From a virus: a DNA stretch of 45,226 bases. The stretch lies in IMG/VR virus record IMGVR_UViG_3300046665_000206, positions 1 through 45,226 of that record; one strand, 5' to 3'. Position numbers and translations under genes: made by a program. Under the pieces are notes generated by a model that saw only the letters and a list, made by a program, of their open reading frames with translations, was not told the origin of the DNA and did no database searches. Of the stretch, positions 7,398-45,171 are shown one piece after another; positions within the stretch are counted from its first letter, which is position 1; each line of letters opens with the position of its first letter.

Positions 7398-7694
7398 TCA
7401 GTTCGTTCCGTCATAGATGTCGTGGACACGGGGATCGTCCGTAGTGTCAACGAGCACGGGTTCTGGGAGTGGTGCTTGTGCCGCGTCCGCGAATTTCTTC
7501 ACGAGCACGAGGAAACCTTCGAAGCCTTGGAAGGACGCGTAGATTTGTTCGCGAGCTTTGGTTTCGTGAGGTTTGGTTTGGAGAATGTCGGCGGCGCACT
7601 GCTGCGAATAGAGCTGTGTGAGAGCGCCGAAGTTCTCCGAGCTAAGGAGGTCCAAACAGAACGCCCCTAGCTCAGAGATTGTTGCTTCGTTCAA
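7398..7694 (-). CDS. Hypothetical protein between portal and scaffold (98 aa)
   Basis: This small mostly helical protein has a C-terminal PEPVLVDTTDDPRVHDIYDG tail. Its start is TTG 7694, which overlaps the upstream stop as TTGA and has AAGGA six bases before it. It sits three bases from the scaffold gene. A head-assembly accessory role is likely from context only. Confidence 0.6.
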   Translation of the reverse strand: MNEATISELGAFCLDLLSSENFGALTQLYSQQCAADILQTKPHETKAREQIYASFQGFEGFLVLVKKFADAAQAPLPEPVLVDTTDDPRVHDIYDGTN

Positions 7695-34266: not shown

Positions 34267-34464
34267 GTGTCTCTCCTAGCCCTCACGGGCGCGATAACGG
34301 CGGCAGCGGTTCTCTTCGGAAAACTGCTGCTGCTGTTGGTCGGCAGCGTGTGCGTTCTTAGCGCATTCGTTGTCGGGCTCGTAGCCAACGACATCATGAA
34401 GACAATACGCATCAAGAAGGAGCGCCGTGGCGTTCATACGACACGATCCATGCCCGTGCGGTAA
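34267..34464 (+). CDS. Small membrane protein (65 aa)
   Basis: The start is GTG 34267, directly after the previous TAA. The product has a long hydrophobic segment that may form two helices (LLALTGAITAAAVLFGKLLL and VGSVCVLSAFVVGLVANDI) followed by a basic tail. It overlaps the primase-helicase start by 38 bp. Function unknown. Confidence 0.5.
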   Translation: MSLLALTGAITAAAVLFGKLLLLLVGSVCVLSAFVVGLVANDIMKTIRIKKERRGVHTTRSMPVR

Positions 34465-36067
34465 ATCATCGGACGGGCTATCGGTATACGACGACGGGAG
34501 CTTCTGCCAAGTCTGCGAGAAACCCTTCAAGGGTGACGGCACAGAGACCACAACGGCTCCCAAGGAACACGAGGAGCGCGATTGGAAGCCCAACCCGGGC
34601 CACTACGAAGACCTCGTGAAGCGTGGTATCCGCGAAGATACCTGTAAGCGATTTGGCTATCAGGTTGGTGACCGCTTCGGTGAGCGGGTCCACATCCAGA
34701 ACATTCGCGGTGATCGCGGTGAACTGCTGGGCCAGAAGTTTCGCGACAAAGAGAAGAACTTCACGTGGATTGGTCCAGCCAAGAAGGACCCGGGTATCAC
34801 AGGCTCGTGGCTGTGGCCTGAGAAGGGTAAGTCGGTTGTCATCACTGAAGGTGAAATCGACATGCTCACCGTGTCCCAGGTATTCGACAACAAGTGGCCA
34901 GTGGGCTCCCTGCCGAACGGTACGGGCTCCGTGGTCAAGGCGATCACCAAGGACTACGAAAAGCTCTGCAGGTTCGATCACATCGTTCTCTGCTTCGACA
35001 CCGACGAGCCCGGCCAAGAGGCCCTGAAGAAGGCCTGCGAAATCCTTCCGGTCGGTCGGGTCAAGATTATGTCCCTGCCCCGCAAGGACGCCAATGAGAC
35101 CCTGCGGGACAAAGAGCACGGCGCTGAGGCGATTGTGCGCGCCTTCTGGAACGCAGCTGTATGGCGTCCCGATGGCATCCGTGAGGGCCGTGAGTTCACC
35201 CGGGAACGGATGAAGCAAAGGCAGCGCACAGGGTATCCCCTGCCGTGGCCCAAGCTCGACGGGATGTGGATGGGGCTACGCGACGGTGAAATCACCACCA
35301 TCTGCGCAGGCTCAGGTATCGGCAAGTCCACCATTGCACGCGCGATGGCCTACCACTTGCGCATGGAGCACGGCCTGAAGGTCGGCAACATCTTCCTTGA
35401 GGAGGACAACGATACGTCCGTGAAGGCCTACGTTGGTCTCCATGCTGGCGTGCCGCTTAAGAACCTCATCGCGAACCCTGAGAGCCTATCGGACGAAGAG
35501 TGGGACGCATCCCTAGCCGCTGTGGTCTGGGACAACATGATGTTCTACGACCACTTCGGGTCTCTGCAGTCCAAGCGGCTGCTCACGATGATGCACTACA
35601 TGGCAGCTTCGGGCTGCAAGTTCATCGTGCTCGATCACATCAGTATTGTTGTGTCGGGCCTTGAGACCAATGACGAGCGCCGGGACATCGACATGCTGAT
35701 GACCGCCCTTGCCTCCTTCGTGAAGGAGACGGGTGTTGGCGTCATCGCCATCGTCCACTTGAAGCGCAGTCAGGGAAAGAACTTCAACGAGGGTGGCCAA
35801 ATCAGCCTCAATGACCTTCGTGGCTCTGCATCTATCGAGCAGCTTTCGTTCAACGTGTTGGCTGCTGAGCGCAATCAACAGGACGAAGACAAGAAGCTCT
35901 TTGCATTACTGCGGAGCCTCAAGTGCCGCATCACTGGTGACACTGGTGAGGCCGACACACTGAAATGGAATGTCGAGAAGGGTTGTTACGAGCTTGCGTC
36001 TCCGTTTGAAGCGGAGGCGGGTAGCCCGTTCGACGCTGACGACACCGAAGGAGACATACCCTTCTGA
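34427..36067 (+). CDS. Primase-helicase, T7 gp4-like (546 aa)
   Basis: The N-terminal zinc region (HDPCPCGKSSDGLSVYDDG, then CQVC) parallels T7 gp4, although the first Cys pair is C-x-C instead of C-x2-C. The toprim primase core has Glu141 (VITEGEID) and Asp191/Asp193 (CFDTDEPG). The helicase has Walker A GSGIGKST (about 295-302), Walker B KFIVLDH and IAIVHLKRS, and an acidic tail ending GDIPF for polymerase binding. The start is GTG 34427 with AAGGAG four bases upstream. It primes lagging-strand synthesis and unwinds DNA. Confidence 0.95.
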   Translation: MAFIRHDPCPCGKSSDGLSVYDDGSFCQVCEKPFKGDGTETTTAPKEHEERDWKPNPGHYEDLVKRGIREDTCKRFGYQVGDRFGERVHIQNIRGDRGELLGQKFRDKEKNFTWIGPAKKDPGITGSWLWPEKGKSVVITEGEIDMLTVSQVFDNKWPVGSLPNGTGSVVKAITKDYEKLCRFDHIVLCFDTDEPGQEALKKACEILPVGRVKIMSLPRKDANETLRDKEHGAEAIVRAFWNAAVWRPDGIREGREFTRERMKQRQRTGYPLPWPKLDGMWMGLRDGEITTICAGSGIGKSTIARAMAYHLRMEHGLKVGNIFLEEDNDTSVKAYVGLHAGVPLKNLIANPESLSDEEWDASLAAVVWDNMMFYDHFGSLQSKRLLTMMHYMAASGCKFIVLDHISIVVSGLETNDERRDIDMLMTALASFVKETGVGVIAIVHLKRSQGKNFNEGGQISLNDLRGSASIEQLSFNVLAAERNQQDEDKKLFALLRSLKCRITGDTGEADTLKWNVEKGCYELASPFEAEAGSPFDADDTEGDIPF

Positions 36068-38184
36068 GACTACTAGGCGACACCGAAAGCAACGGGTTCG
36101 TTGCGAATGCCACGAAGATACACTGCTCCTGCTTCGTGAACATTGATGACCGGGAGCAAGTCTGGGACTTCAAGCCGGGCGAGACTGACGCGATGATTGA
36201 GCTGCTGGACAAGGCAGACATGATCATCGGCCACAACTGGCAGCGACATGACGGCCCCCTGATCAAAAAGCTCACCCGATGGACCCCAAGACCCGGGGTT
36301 CTCGTGCGTGACACGATGATCATCTCACGCTTGAAGTTTCCGAACCTGAAGGCAACCGACAAGGCACTCGTGCAGTCGGGCAAGATGCCCCCAGGTAACA
36401 AGTACCAAGGCCGTCACACCATCGGTGCGTGGGGCTATCGCCTTGGTAATCCCAAGGGTGACTACGCGGCCATTCGAGAGGCCGAAGCTCTCGCAAAGGG
36501 CATCACTGATCCTGAAGCCATCGCACGCTACGTGTGGGGTGAATGGAACGAAGAGATGCACGACTACATGCTGCAGGACCGCTCGACGGGCCTAAGCCTC
36601 TGGGACGTGCTGAACCCTGACGCTTACTCGCAACCTGCTATCGAACTTGAGCATCGCGTAGCCCGCGTATGTGATGCCATGGAGAAGGCGGGCGTCCCGT
36701 TCAACCTTAAGGCCGCTGCTGAGCTGCAAGCCGAACTGGTAGGACGCAAGGACGTACTCGAAACGAAGCTCAAGGAAACCTACGGCTACTGGTACGCACC
36801 GATCAGCCCTAACCCGTCGAAGGCAATCTTCATTCCGAAGAAGGCTGACGAGAAGGCAGGTTATTGGGGTGACGAATGGACTACCGAAGTGCCTGTAACG
36901 AAGAACGGCGAGCCTGTTTACGACAGGAACGGAGTTCTCAAGACCAAGCTGAAGAAGCACTTCAAGGGATACCCCTGCACCAAGATTAAGCCCGTGATGT
37001 TCAACCCGGGCTCCTCAGACCATCTCGCCAAGGTCCTTCAGGATCAGGGCTGGAAGCCTACGAAGTTCACTGATGGCGGTAAGCCAGCAATGGACGAAGA
37101 GGTCATCGAGAGCATCACCAACCAGTTTCCGCAGATGGATGGGTTGGCTGAGCTGCTGATGATCAACAAGCGACTGTCGCAACTCGTGGGCGGCAAGAGC
37201 AGCAAGTATCCCCTCATTGACTGCGTGAAGGAAGACGGACGCATTCACGGCGTGATCAACCCTATGGGAACGATTACGTCCCGTGGCGCACATATGTTCC
37301 CTAACTTGGGACAAGTGCCGTCCGCTAAGAAGCCATACGGCATCGCCTTCCGCTCTCTGTTCTACGCACCGCAAGGATGGAAATTCCTGGGTGCTGACCA
37401 GCAGGGATTGGAGCTTCGTGGTCTCGCTCATTACCTGCATCCGCTCGACGGCGGCAAGTATATGGACGTCGTTATCGCTGGTGATCCCCATTGGCTTCAC
37501 GCTGAAGTAATGGACCTCGCCACAGGGCCTCGTGACAAGCACAACAAGTGCCACACGATCATCCGTGAGGATGGCACCAAGCGGTTCATCTACGCCTACA
37601 TCTACGGCGCTGGTGACGAAATGGTTGGCACCATCATCTACGAAGCCTTGCTGAACGCACGGCGCAACGGCGGTGACGAAGGTATCGCTCTCTACGTCAA
37701 GTTCTTCGGTGAAGAGGTTGTCGGTGAGAGCAAGCTCAAGAAGGTTGGCAAGGCAATCCGCTCTGCGTTCGCAAAGCGCATCGACGGTTACGGCAAGCTG
37801 CAGCAGAAGCTGAGCGAACAGGTAGCCAAGAAGCGCCGTGTGGTTGGTCTGGACGGTCGCAAAATCCCGATCCGGTCTGATCACTCTGCATTGAACTTCA
37901 TGATCCAATCTGCGGGTGCAATTGTCTGCAAGCGTTGGCTCGCTGACGCCTTCGAAGAGTGCGAGCGTCGGTTTGGTTACAACTACGATGACCCGTGGTC
38001 AGGAGTGTTTGTCTTCTGTCTCTGGGTGCACGACGAAGTTCAGCTCTGTGTCCGTGAAGGATACGAGAAGGAAGTCGGTGACATCATCGTGGAATGCGCA
38101 CGGCGCGCTGGGGACCCTTATGGTTTCCGTGTGCCTCTGGATAGCGAATGGTCCACAGGCGACAATTGGGCTGACACTCACTGA
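36064..38184 (+). CDS. DNA polymerase, family A, T7 gp5-like (706 aa) with apparent CTG start
   Basis: Polymerase motifs: A FLGADQQGLELR with Asp445, B KRFIYAYIYGAG (about 506-517), C WVHDEVQL with Asp657. The N-terminal 3'-5' exonuclease begins LLGDTESNG (Asp and Glu), which lies upstream of any ATG, GTG or TTG; the GTG at 36136 would remove it. CTG 36064 starts MRLLGDTESNG, overlaps the primase stop as CTGA, and has AAGGAG ten bases upstream. It replicates the genome and probably uses a host processivity factor, as T7 uses thioredoxin. Confidence 0.93.
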   Translation: MRLLGDTESNGFVANATKIHCSCFVNIDDREQVWDFKPGETDAMIELLDKADMIIGHNWQRHDGPLIKKLTRWTPRPGVLVRDTMIISRLKFPNLKATDKALVQSGKMPPGNKYQGRHTIGAWGYRLGNPKGDYAAIREAEALAKGITDPEAIARYVWGEWNEEMHDYMLQDRSTGLSLWDVLNPDAYSQPAIELEHRVARVCDAMEKAGVPFNLKAAAELQAELVGRKDVLETKLKETYGYWYAPISPNPSKAIFIPKKADEKAGYWGDEWTTEVPVTKNGEPVYDRNGVLKTKLKKHFKGYPCTKIKPVMFNPGSSDHLAKVLQDQGWKPTKFTDGGKPAMDEEVIESITNQFPQMDGLAELLMINKRLSQLVGGKSSKYPLIDCVKEDGRIHGVINPMGTITSRGAHMFPNLGQVPSAKKPYGIAFRSLFYAPQGWKFLGADQQGLELRGLAHYLHPLDGGKYMDVVIAGDPHWLHAEVMDLATGPRDKHNKCHTIIREDGTKRFIYAYIYGAGDEMVGTIIYEALLNARRNGGDEGIALYVKFFGEEVVGESKLKKVGKAIRSAFAKRIDGYGKLQQKLSEQVAKKRRVVGLDGRKIPIRSDHSALNFMIQSAGAIVCKRWLADAFEECERRFGYNYDDPWSGVFVFCLWVHDEVQLCVREGYEKEVGDIIVECARRAGDPYGFRVPLDSEWSTGDNWADTH

Positions 38185-41693: not shown

Positions 41694-42284
41694 ATGGCTA
41701 CATTTCAACCTTTCCCAAAGCTCGCGCGGCTTTCCCGCGAGTGTGTCGTCACTGAGAAACTAGACGGCACCAATGCCTGCGTCGTGATCAGCGAATATGT
41801 TGGTGATTTCCAGACGTATCTAAACGTCGAGGCACAGTCACGCACTCGGATGATCTACCCAGGTAAGAAGACCGACAACTTCGGATTTGCCGAGTGGGTC
41901 AGAGAGCACGAGGAAGAGCTTAAGAAGCTTGGACCGGGCTACCATTATGGCGAGTGGTACGGCAAAGGCATCCAGCGCGGCTACGGCCTCAATGAGCGCC
42001 GCTTCGCCCTCTTCAATACCAGCCGATACGTCGCGGGTCCTGAGCCTGCTACGCAGGAGTTCGACGGACGCATTAGGGTCCCTTCGTGCTGCGAGGTCGT
42101 ACCTGAGCTTTACCGTGGAAACTTCTTCACCACGCAGGCTGATATCGAGCTGCACAATCTAGCGAGCACAGGTTCTCGCGCAGTGCCCGGCTTCATGAAC
42201 CCCGAGGGCATTGTGGTCTACCACACGCACGCTGGCGTTGCCTTCAAGAAGACCTTCGACGACAGGCACAAAGAAGCAGCATGA
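41694..42284 (+). CDS. ATP-dependent RNA/DNA ligase-like protein (196 aa)
   Basis: The nucleotidyltransferase motifs are present: motif I EKLDGTNA with Lys22, motif III-like YHYGEWYGKGIQ (about 83-94), motif IV EGIVVY (Glu171) and motif V FKKTF (Lys185-Lys186). This spacing fits the small RNA-ligase family (PF09414). The length of about 196 is short, a catalytic core only. It may repair RNA or nicked DNA. It has AAGGAG two bases before the ATG, an unusually tight spacing. Confidence 0.82.
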   Translation: MATFQPFPKLARLSRECVVTEKLDGTNACVVISEYVGDFQTYLNVEAQSRTRMIYPGKKTDNFGFAEWVREHEEELKKLGPGYHYGEWYGKGIQRGYGLNERRFALFNTSRYVAGPEPATQEFDGRIRVPSCCEVVPELYRGNFFTTQADIELHNLASTGSRAVPGFMNPEGIVVYHTHAGVAFKKTFDDRHKEAA

Positions 42285-44496: not shown

Positions 44497-44514
44497 CCGA
44501 TACCAAATACCCCT

Positions 44515-45171
44515 CTGCGGGTCCTCGTTGGCTGTGAATACAGCGGACGTGTGAGAGACGCCTTCAGGGCTTTAGGGCACGACGCTTGGTCGTGTGACCT
44601 GTTGGCGGCACCGGGAAATCATTTTCAATGCGATGTTCTCTCCGTCCTCGATAGAGGATGGGACCTAGCGATTTTCCATCCACCCTGCACCTACCTGACC
44701 ATTGCGGCTGAGTGGGCGTATAAAGACCCCGACTTCGAACGCTACCCGGGCGTAGGCTATCACCAGAAGGTCAAGCCCGAGACGCTAACAGGGGCTGACA
44801 GACGCACCGCGCGTGAATGCGCGCTGATGTTTGTGCGTCATCTCATGAACGCGCCAATCCCAAGGATTGCCTTGGAGAATCCCAAGGGCGTCATCGGGTC
44901 CCGCATAGGGCCTTCGTCGCAGATTATCCAACCGTATGACTTCGGAGATGACGCCAGCAAGGCCACGTGCCTGTGGCTCAAAGGGCTCCCGAAGCTCACG
45001 CCTACGCTCTACGTGCCTCCTAGGATCACCAAGGACGGCAAGGAGCGTTGGGCTAACCAGACCGATAGCGGACAGAACCGGCTTGGTCCTTCGGAGGACC
45101 GATGGGCCGAAAGGTCCCTAACCTACCAAGGGATCGCGGATGCCATGGCTGACCAATGGAGCCACCTGTGA
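44515..45171 (+). CDS. C5-cytosine methyltransferase-like protein (218 aa) with apparent CTG start
   Basis: Motifs: VLVGCEYSGRVRDAF (SAM-binding loop), FHPPCTYL (PPC at 56-58, catalytic Cys of motif IV) and ALENP (121-123, motif VI). SLTYQGIADAMADQW ends the protein, as in the related phage family. No target-recognition domain is seen, so activity is uncertain. GTG 44551 would cut off the SAM loop. The upstream frame has only CTG 44515 (giving MRVLVGCEYSG) or ATA 44500 as possible starts. No clear ribosome site precedes either. The gene runs through the contig joint. Confidence 0.75.
   Translation: MRVLVGCEYSGRVRDAFRALGHDAWSCDLLAAPGNHFQCDVLSVLDRGWDLAIFHPPCTYLTIAAEWAYKDPDFERYPGVGYHQKVKPETLTGADRRTARECALMFVRHLMNAPIPRIALENPKGVIGSRIGPSSQIIQPYDFGDDASKATCLWLKGLPKLTPTLYVPPRITKDGKERWANQTDSGQNRLGPSEDRWAERSLTYQGIADAMADQWSHL

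Follow-up and report, generated by a model that had tools for sequence, protein, structure and literature searches.

A CTG codon as the probable start of a T7-like phage DNA polymerase, in a start slot shared with other near-cognate codons among its relatives

Where does translation of the DNA polymerase of this T7-like phage begin? The window, meaning the whole stretch of 45,226 nucleotides analysed here (IMG/VR virus record IMGVR_UViG_3300046665_000206), encodes a polymerase whose exonuclease motif, GDTESNG, lies in frame and 5' of the first standard start codon (ATG, GTG or TTG), the GTG at 36136. To our knowledge, near-cognate starts have been proven for just a handful of bacterial genes and are ignored by gene finders. 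The elements of the locus are the following:

34427-36067, plus strand: T7-like primase-helicase gene, the upstream partner (Pfam Helic-prim_T7_N, Toprim_2 and DnaB_C; open reading frame list)
36047-36054, plus strand: Shine-Dalgarno (SD) sequence GAAGGAGA, spacing 9 to the CTG (-9.0 kcal/mol with the anti-SD)
36064-36067, plus strand: CTGA overlap of the putative polymerase CTG start and the primase TGA stop (sequence; CTG kept in relatives L001, L005 and L004)
36064-38184, plus strand: predicted coding sequence of a T7-like family A DNA polymerase, 706 aa from the CTG (PF00476; T7 DNA polymerase 6n7w)
36079-36087, plus strand: exonuclease motif I, D-T-E, residues 6-8 from the CTG (aligned with T7 gp5 D5-I-E7)
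36136-36138, plus strand: GTG, the earliest standard start codon, discarded as initiation site (no SD; unconserved; deletes motif I)

Read codon by codon, the polymerase frame is open from an in-frame TGA (36037-36039) to 38184 and begins CGA CAC CGA AGG AGA CAT ACC CTT CTG(36064) AGA CTA CTA GGC GAC ACC GAA AGC AAC GGG. No ATG, GTG or TTG occurs in this frame between that stop and GTG 36136, and CTG 36064 is the sole in-frame NCBI table-11 start codon 5' of the exonuclease motif. The first base of the four-base overlap CTGA precedes the TGA (36065-36067) of the primase-helicase. The best anti-SD pairing upstream is that of GAAGGAGA, a good SD at normal spacing, as found in genes with near-cognate starts; the AAGGAG within it (36048-36053) lies ten bases 5' of the CTG. 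The original prediction had described the motif ahead of GTG 36136, the frame devoid of standard codons, the CTGA and the AAGGAG, and every one of its coordinates proved correct. Its remark that the phage also uses ATGA, GTGA and TTGA overlaps holds as well (junctions at 42281, 41036 and 44185, and on the minus strand at 7691, 17662 and 17841). That CTGA completes this set is true but understated, as ATT, ATA and ATC serve in the clade as well.

The product matches the family A polymerase domain PF00476 (E 4.6e-29, 102 bits against a cut-off of 34.3) and, over its whole length including the N-terminus, T7 DNA polymerase (6n7w, E 1.2e-103). Residue 3 counted from the CTG aligns with residue 2 of the T7 chain, a CTG start giving an N-terminus one residue longer than that of T7, and D6 and E8 correspond to D5 and E7 of T7 gp5, the N-terminal 3'-5' exonuclease motif I. 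T7 gene 5 is thus homologous along its full length, and it is likewise encoded directly after the primase-helicase. It starts with ATG, unlike the polymerase of the window, in which no ATG, GTG or TTG is compatible with the conserved N-terminus. Initiation at GTG 36136 would make use of the first standard codon, but the polymerase would then lack the catalytic D and E of motif I, which is conserved in all relatives and in T7. Furthermore, the pairing with the anti-SD at this codon is just -1.2 kcal/mol, i.e. no SD, and the GTG is absent from two relatives (L005 and L002) and so not conserved. On these three grounds we rejected GTG 36136, whose use as the start is extremely unlikely. CTG 36064, in turn, is very probably the start of the polymerase, as originally proposed, a reading supported by the sequence of the window and by the retention of the CTG in relatives L001/L008, L005 and L004.

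The branching out of this start among related phages provides additional clues. Relatives were collected from viral-contig searches and one genome search, giving 43 distinct start regions with a polymerase identity of at least 44%, across which the start position is conserved. We define the slot as the two codons (-2 and -1) preceding R-L-L-x-D-T-E. It contains ATG in 17 regions, GTG in 5, TTG in 2, CTG in 6, ATT in 6, ATA in 4, ATC in 1 and GTT in 2; a standard codon is therefore found in 24/43 and a non-standard one in 19/43. The alignment of related phages that had been proposed as a check for ATG accordingly finds a standard codon in this position in others. Seventeen of the 19 non-standard regions carry CTG, ATT, ATA or ATC. 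In 12 of the 19 no in-frame standard codon exists back to the preceding stop, and in the other 7 the standard codon is at least 13 codons upstream, within the upstream gene. Near-cognates occupy codon -2 in 16/43 regions, against 8/430 across codons -12 to -3. When the 19 non-standard regions are grouped by upstream sequence, 13 of 14 groups have a near-cognate in the slot; with the groups treated as independent, and leucine at codon -1 being partly a protein feature, this gives P about 1.5e-17 over the flank background of 2.1% per codon, about 5e-9 with a generous 10% background, and about 1e-16 for codon -2 alone. The CTG of the window's lineage coincides with a second codon that encodes leucine in other members, and part of its conservation would follow from the protein sequence anyway. 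Non-standard starts are preceded by stronger SD pairing than standard ones (median -7.0 vs -5.8 kcal/mol; P = 0.002, kinship ignored), which is what compensation for weak codons would predict.

Individual relatives are informative too. L001 and L008 have a polymerase 95% identical to that of the window behind another upstream gene, and the same CTG; L001 matches the window again from CTGAGACTACTAGGC onward. L005 (77% identical) has the primase upstream and keeps the CTGA, and L004 (67%) has a different small gene upstream, with the CTGA one codon earlier and AAGGAG before it. In L100 the start, ATA, overlaps the primase stop as ATAA. Upstream sequence is swapped right up to the polymerase start in L001 (around 2929) and in L017 (around 2995); some recombinants thus seem to acquire the start codon together with the upstream module. 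The best annotated relative, RHph_I20, starts at an ATG that extends the N-terminus by 31 residues, and it is uninformative on the slot; the searches turned up no annotated phage DNA of close similarity to the window.

A different non-standard codon could in principle serve, such as CTT 36061 at -2, given that codon -2 is the start in most relatives and that L037 and L043 carry GTT there, six bases after GGAGGA. L001, however, has CGG at this position, and what the window, L001 and L005 have in common is only the CTG at -1; we regard CTT as an improbable start. Regarding the two GTT cases (L037/L119 and L043/L126, each pair from the same contig), the slot following the GGAGGA and six bases reads GTT CTA, neither codon being a table-11 start. 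With GTT CTA alone in the slot, L119 and L126 would use either a codon that table 11 does not list or some unseen mechanism.

The overlap might also be read as a site of programmed -1 frameshifting that fuses primase and polymerase, as the polymerase frame is -1 to that of the primase and has 8 open codons ahead of the CTG. The overlap contains no slippery heptamer, however, and the frame relation is +1 in L028, L032, L033 and L115, with upstream genes that vary. L017 is particularly telling. Its primase is followed by TAA ATT CTA AGG CTA CTA TGG GAT, with an in-frame TAA immediately 5' of the ATT, an overlap with the primase of 7 bases only, and GGAGGA six bases before the ATT. About half of the relatives, moreover, hold ATG, GTG or TTG in the slot. 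Frameshifting was rejected for its missing slippery site, the varied frame relation and the in-frame stop of L017, and is very unlikely. As for a standard start erased by sequencing or assembly error, the window, like most relatives, is a metagenome contig, but the same CTG recurs in contigs from several samples and similar starts are seen in the 14 upstream-sequence groups, such that an error is barely credible.

With CTG 36064 as the preferred start, we turn to how the slot has changed. Going by the well-supported branches of a tree built from 45 polymerases, the slot must have switched between standard and near-cognate codons at least 10 times. Sister pairs differ (L015 ATG and L017 ATT; L128 ATA and L120 GTG; L108 CTG and L031 ATA), and L017 and L015 have identical N-termini and nearly the same polymerase. 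Outside the clade, 24/24 more distant polymerases have an in-frame standard start. A further scan of polymerases below 44% identity found a standard start in all except L300, which we set aside because its frames look shifted. Overall, the pattern suggests from sequence comparison that one start slot is used interchangeably by AUG, GUG, UUG, CUG, AUU, AUA or AUC across the clade.

What such a start is for is a separate matter. We suggest, tentatively, that the purpose of the weak start is a low, primase-coupled and IF3-sensitive output of polymerase. The strong SD would position the 30S subunit at CUG 36064, ribosomes finishing the primase-helicase at the overlapping UGA would supply initiation there, and the CUG would be accepted with fMet-tRNA as a near-cognate start. 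No tRNA gene was found in the window, and thus no phage-encoded initiator tRNA. The weak codon would keep the polymerase low relative to the primase-helicase, its output being probably sensitive to IF3, which discriminates against near-cognate codons and reinitiation (PMC2268962; PMC5472188). Low output, reinitiation or coupling, and IF3 gating are put forward as hypotheses.

In an alternative scenario, the main one as regards purpose rather than the start site, the CTG start is real and has no regulatory role: SD and coupling would make the codon nearly irrelevant and leave it to neutral drift, especially upon recombination of the upstream gene. We hold this to be a serious possibility, if somewhat doubtful. 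Switching is frequent, even between near-identical polymerases, and L001 and L017, whose upstream sequence is exchanged as far as the start, fit as well. The interchange of the start with ATG or GTG in close relatives argues that these phages can do without a weak codon here, which leaves regulation a conjecture. Nevertheless, drift would be expected in all genes, and other conserved genes nearly always have a standard start. An alignment-based screen of gene families in 17 clade genomes (606 gene copies), which misplaces the start column in several families and whose "far upstream" class was left out, found 15 copies without a standard start, of which 4 are polymerases and 5 belong to one methylase-like family. 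This concentration counts against drift. An earlier blast screen for homology 5' of standard starts was set aside, since overlapping upstream genes produced false extensions.

The methylase-like family is also represented in the window:

44500-45171, plus strand: second gene lacking a standard start, encoding a methylase-like PPCTYL protein, with ATA 44500 and CTG 44515 as candidate starts (homolog comparison)

The beginning of this frame (44497-45171) reads TAA CCG ATA CCA AAT ACC CCT CTG CGG GTC CTC GTT GGC, and no SD precedes either the ATA or the CTG. Among 87 distinct homologs anchored by tblastn, 79 begin with a standard codon close to this position, which in 68 of them lies exactly before R-V-L-V. 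The 8 exceptions are six clade genomes (the window and five others), Pasto and L252. Each of the six clade exceptions has ATA or ATT five codons 5' of the CTG. We consider ATA 44500 or CTG 44515 the likely start of this gene. The isolated Bradyrhizobium phage Pasto carries ATT where Burkholderia phage Bcep1 has ATG, at the position homologous to CTG 44515. The annotated start of the Pasto methyltransferase (L184, MT708545.1, 13454-14068) is 26 codons 3' of the start of homology, and the published annotation thus appears too short, missing a putative near-cognate start. In L252, an unrelated contig, ATA stands directly before KVLVACEFSG, with no standard start nearby. Taking both genes together, one might envisage, more speculatively, a rhizobial-type clade that holds the polymerase and the methylase-like gene under switching near-cognates (CUG, AUU, AUA, AUC and possibly GUU), with replication gated by IF3 and by coupling to the primase.

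Near-cognate starts are already known for single genes, namely infC, sigR and RepFIB rep. A close parallel is the rep gene of RepFIB replicons in F-like plasmids, in which a CTG start with a good ribosome-binding site has been proven and a GTG 14 codons downstream is misannotated (PMC11983097). Like the polymerase of the window, it is a replication gene with a CTG, a good SD and a downstream GTG usually annotated instead, and its expression is held low by the CTG codon (PMC11983097). According to Hecht et al. 2017, as cited in PMC11983097, CTG yields about 1/10 of TTG in E. coli even with a good ribosome-binding site. The RepFIB start is, however, proven by N-terminal analysis and mutation, whereas that of the window is predicted from sequence. 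The RepFIB CTG is also a single codon conserved in a replicon group, with no turnover of seven codons or stop-start overlap described. In Streptomyces, sigR has been shown by experiment to start at GTC, with GTT inferred in two species, and is repressed by IF3 (PMC5472188). As proposed for the polymerase, a non-standard start there lies in a translationally coupled operon and sets the ratio of two products (PMC5472188), but in that pair sigR comes first, while in the phage the downstream gene bears the odd codon. The gene for IF3 itself, infC, has a near-cognate ATT or ATC after an SD, and its product feeds back on infC itself; the phage polymerase would be a target only.

In the open-licence literature we found neither a phage replicative polymerase with CTG, ATT or another near-cognate start nor a phage clade turning over all seven start codons. 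Standard gene finders would mis-annotate these polymerases, dropping the exonuclease motif. In this single slot before an essential enzyme, close relatives between them use every one of the seven table-11 start codons, a natural series that includes at least 10 switches. With such a series one can ask directly if a weak start tunes the polymerase to primase ratio, if overlap and SD make up for a weak codon, and if phage replication is under the control of IF3.

With regard to the host, one relative was found in Bradyrhizobium sp. BR 10289 by the genome search, which hints at infection of Bradyrhizobium, and R. japonicum ATCC 10324 served for the plating of Pasto (PMC8407765). A relative in a Bradyrhizobium genome and the plating host of Pasto make a rhizobial host likely, and the window's phage and its relatives probably infect soil rhizobia. 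Within a Bradyrhizobium genome, a 278-kb contig (L086, NZ_JACOFR010000008.1) contains a relative of this T7-like phage, which, being so embedded, may be a prophage. In Bradyrhizobium sp. BR 10289, infC (L265) reads GGAGAACCACCC ATT CGC CGT CCT. It appears to start at this ATT, in an SD arrangement like that of the phage polymerase starts and resembling those of L017 and L051.
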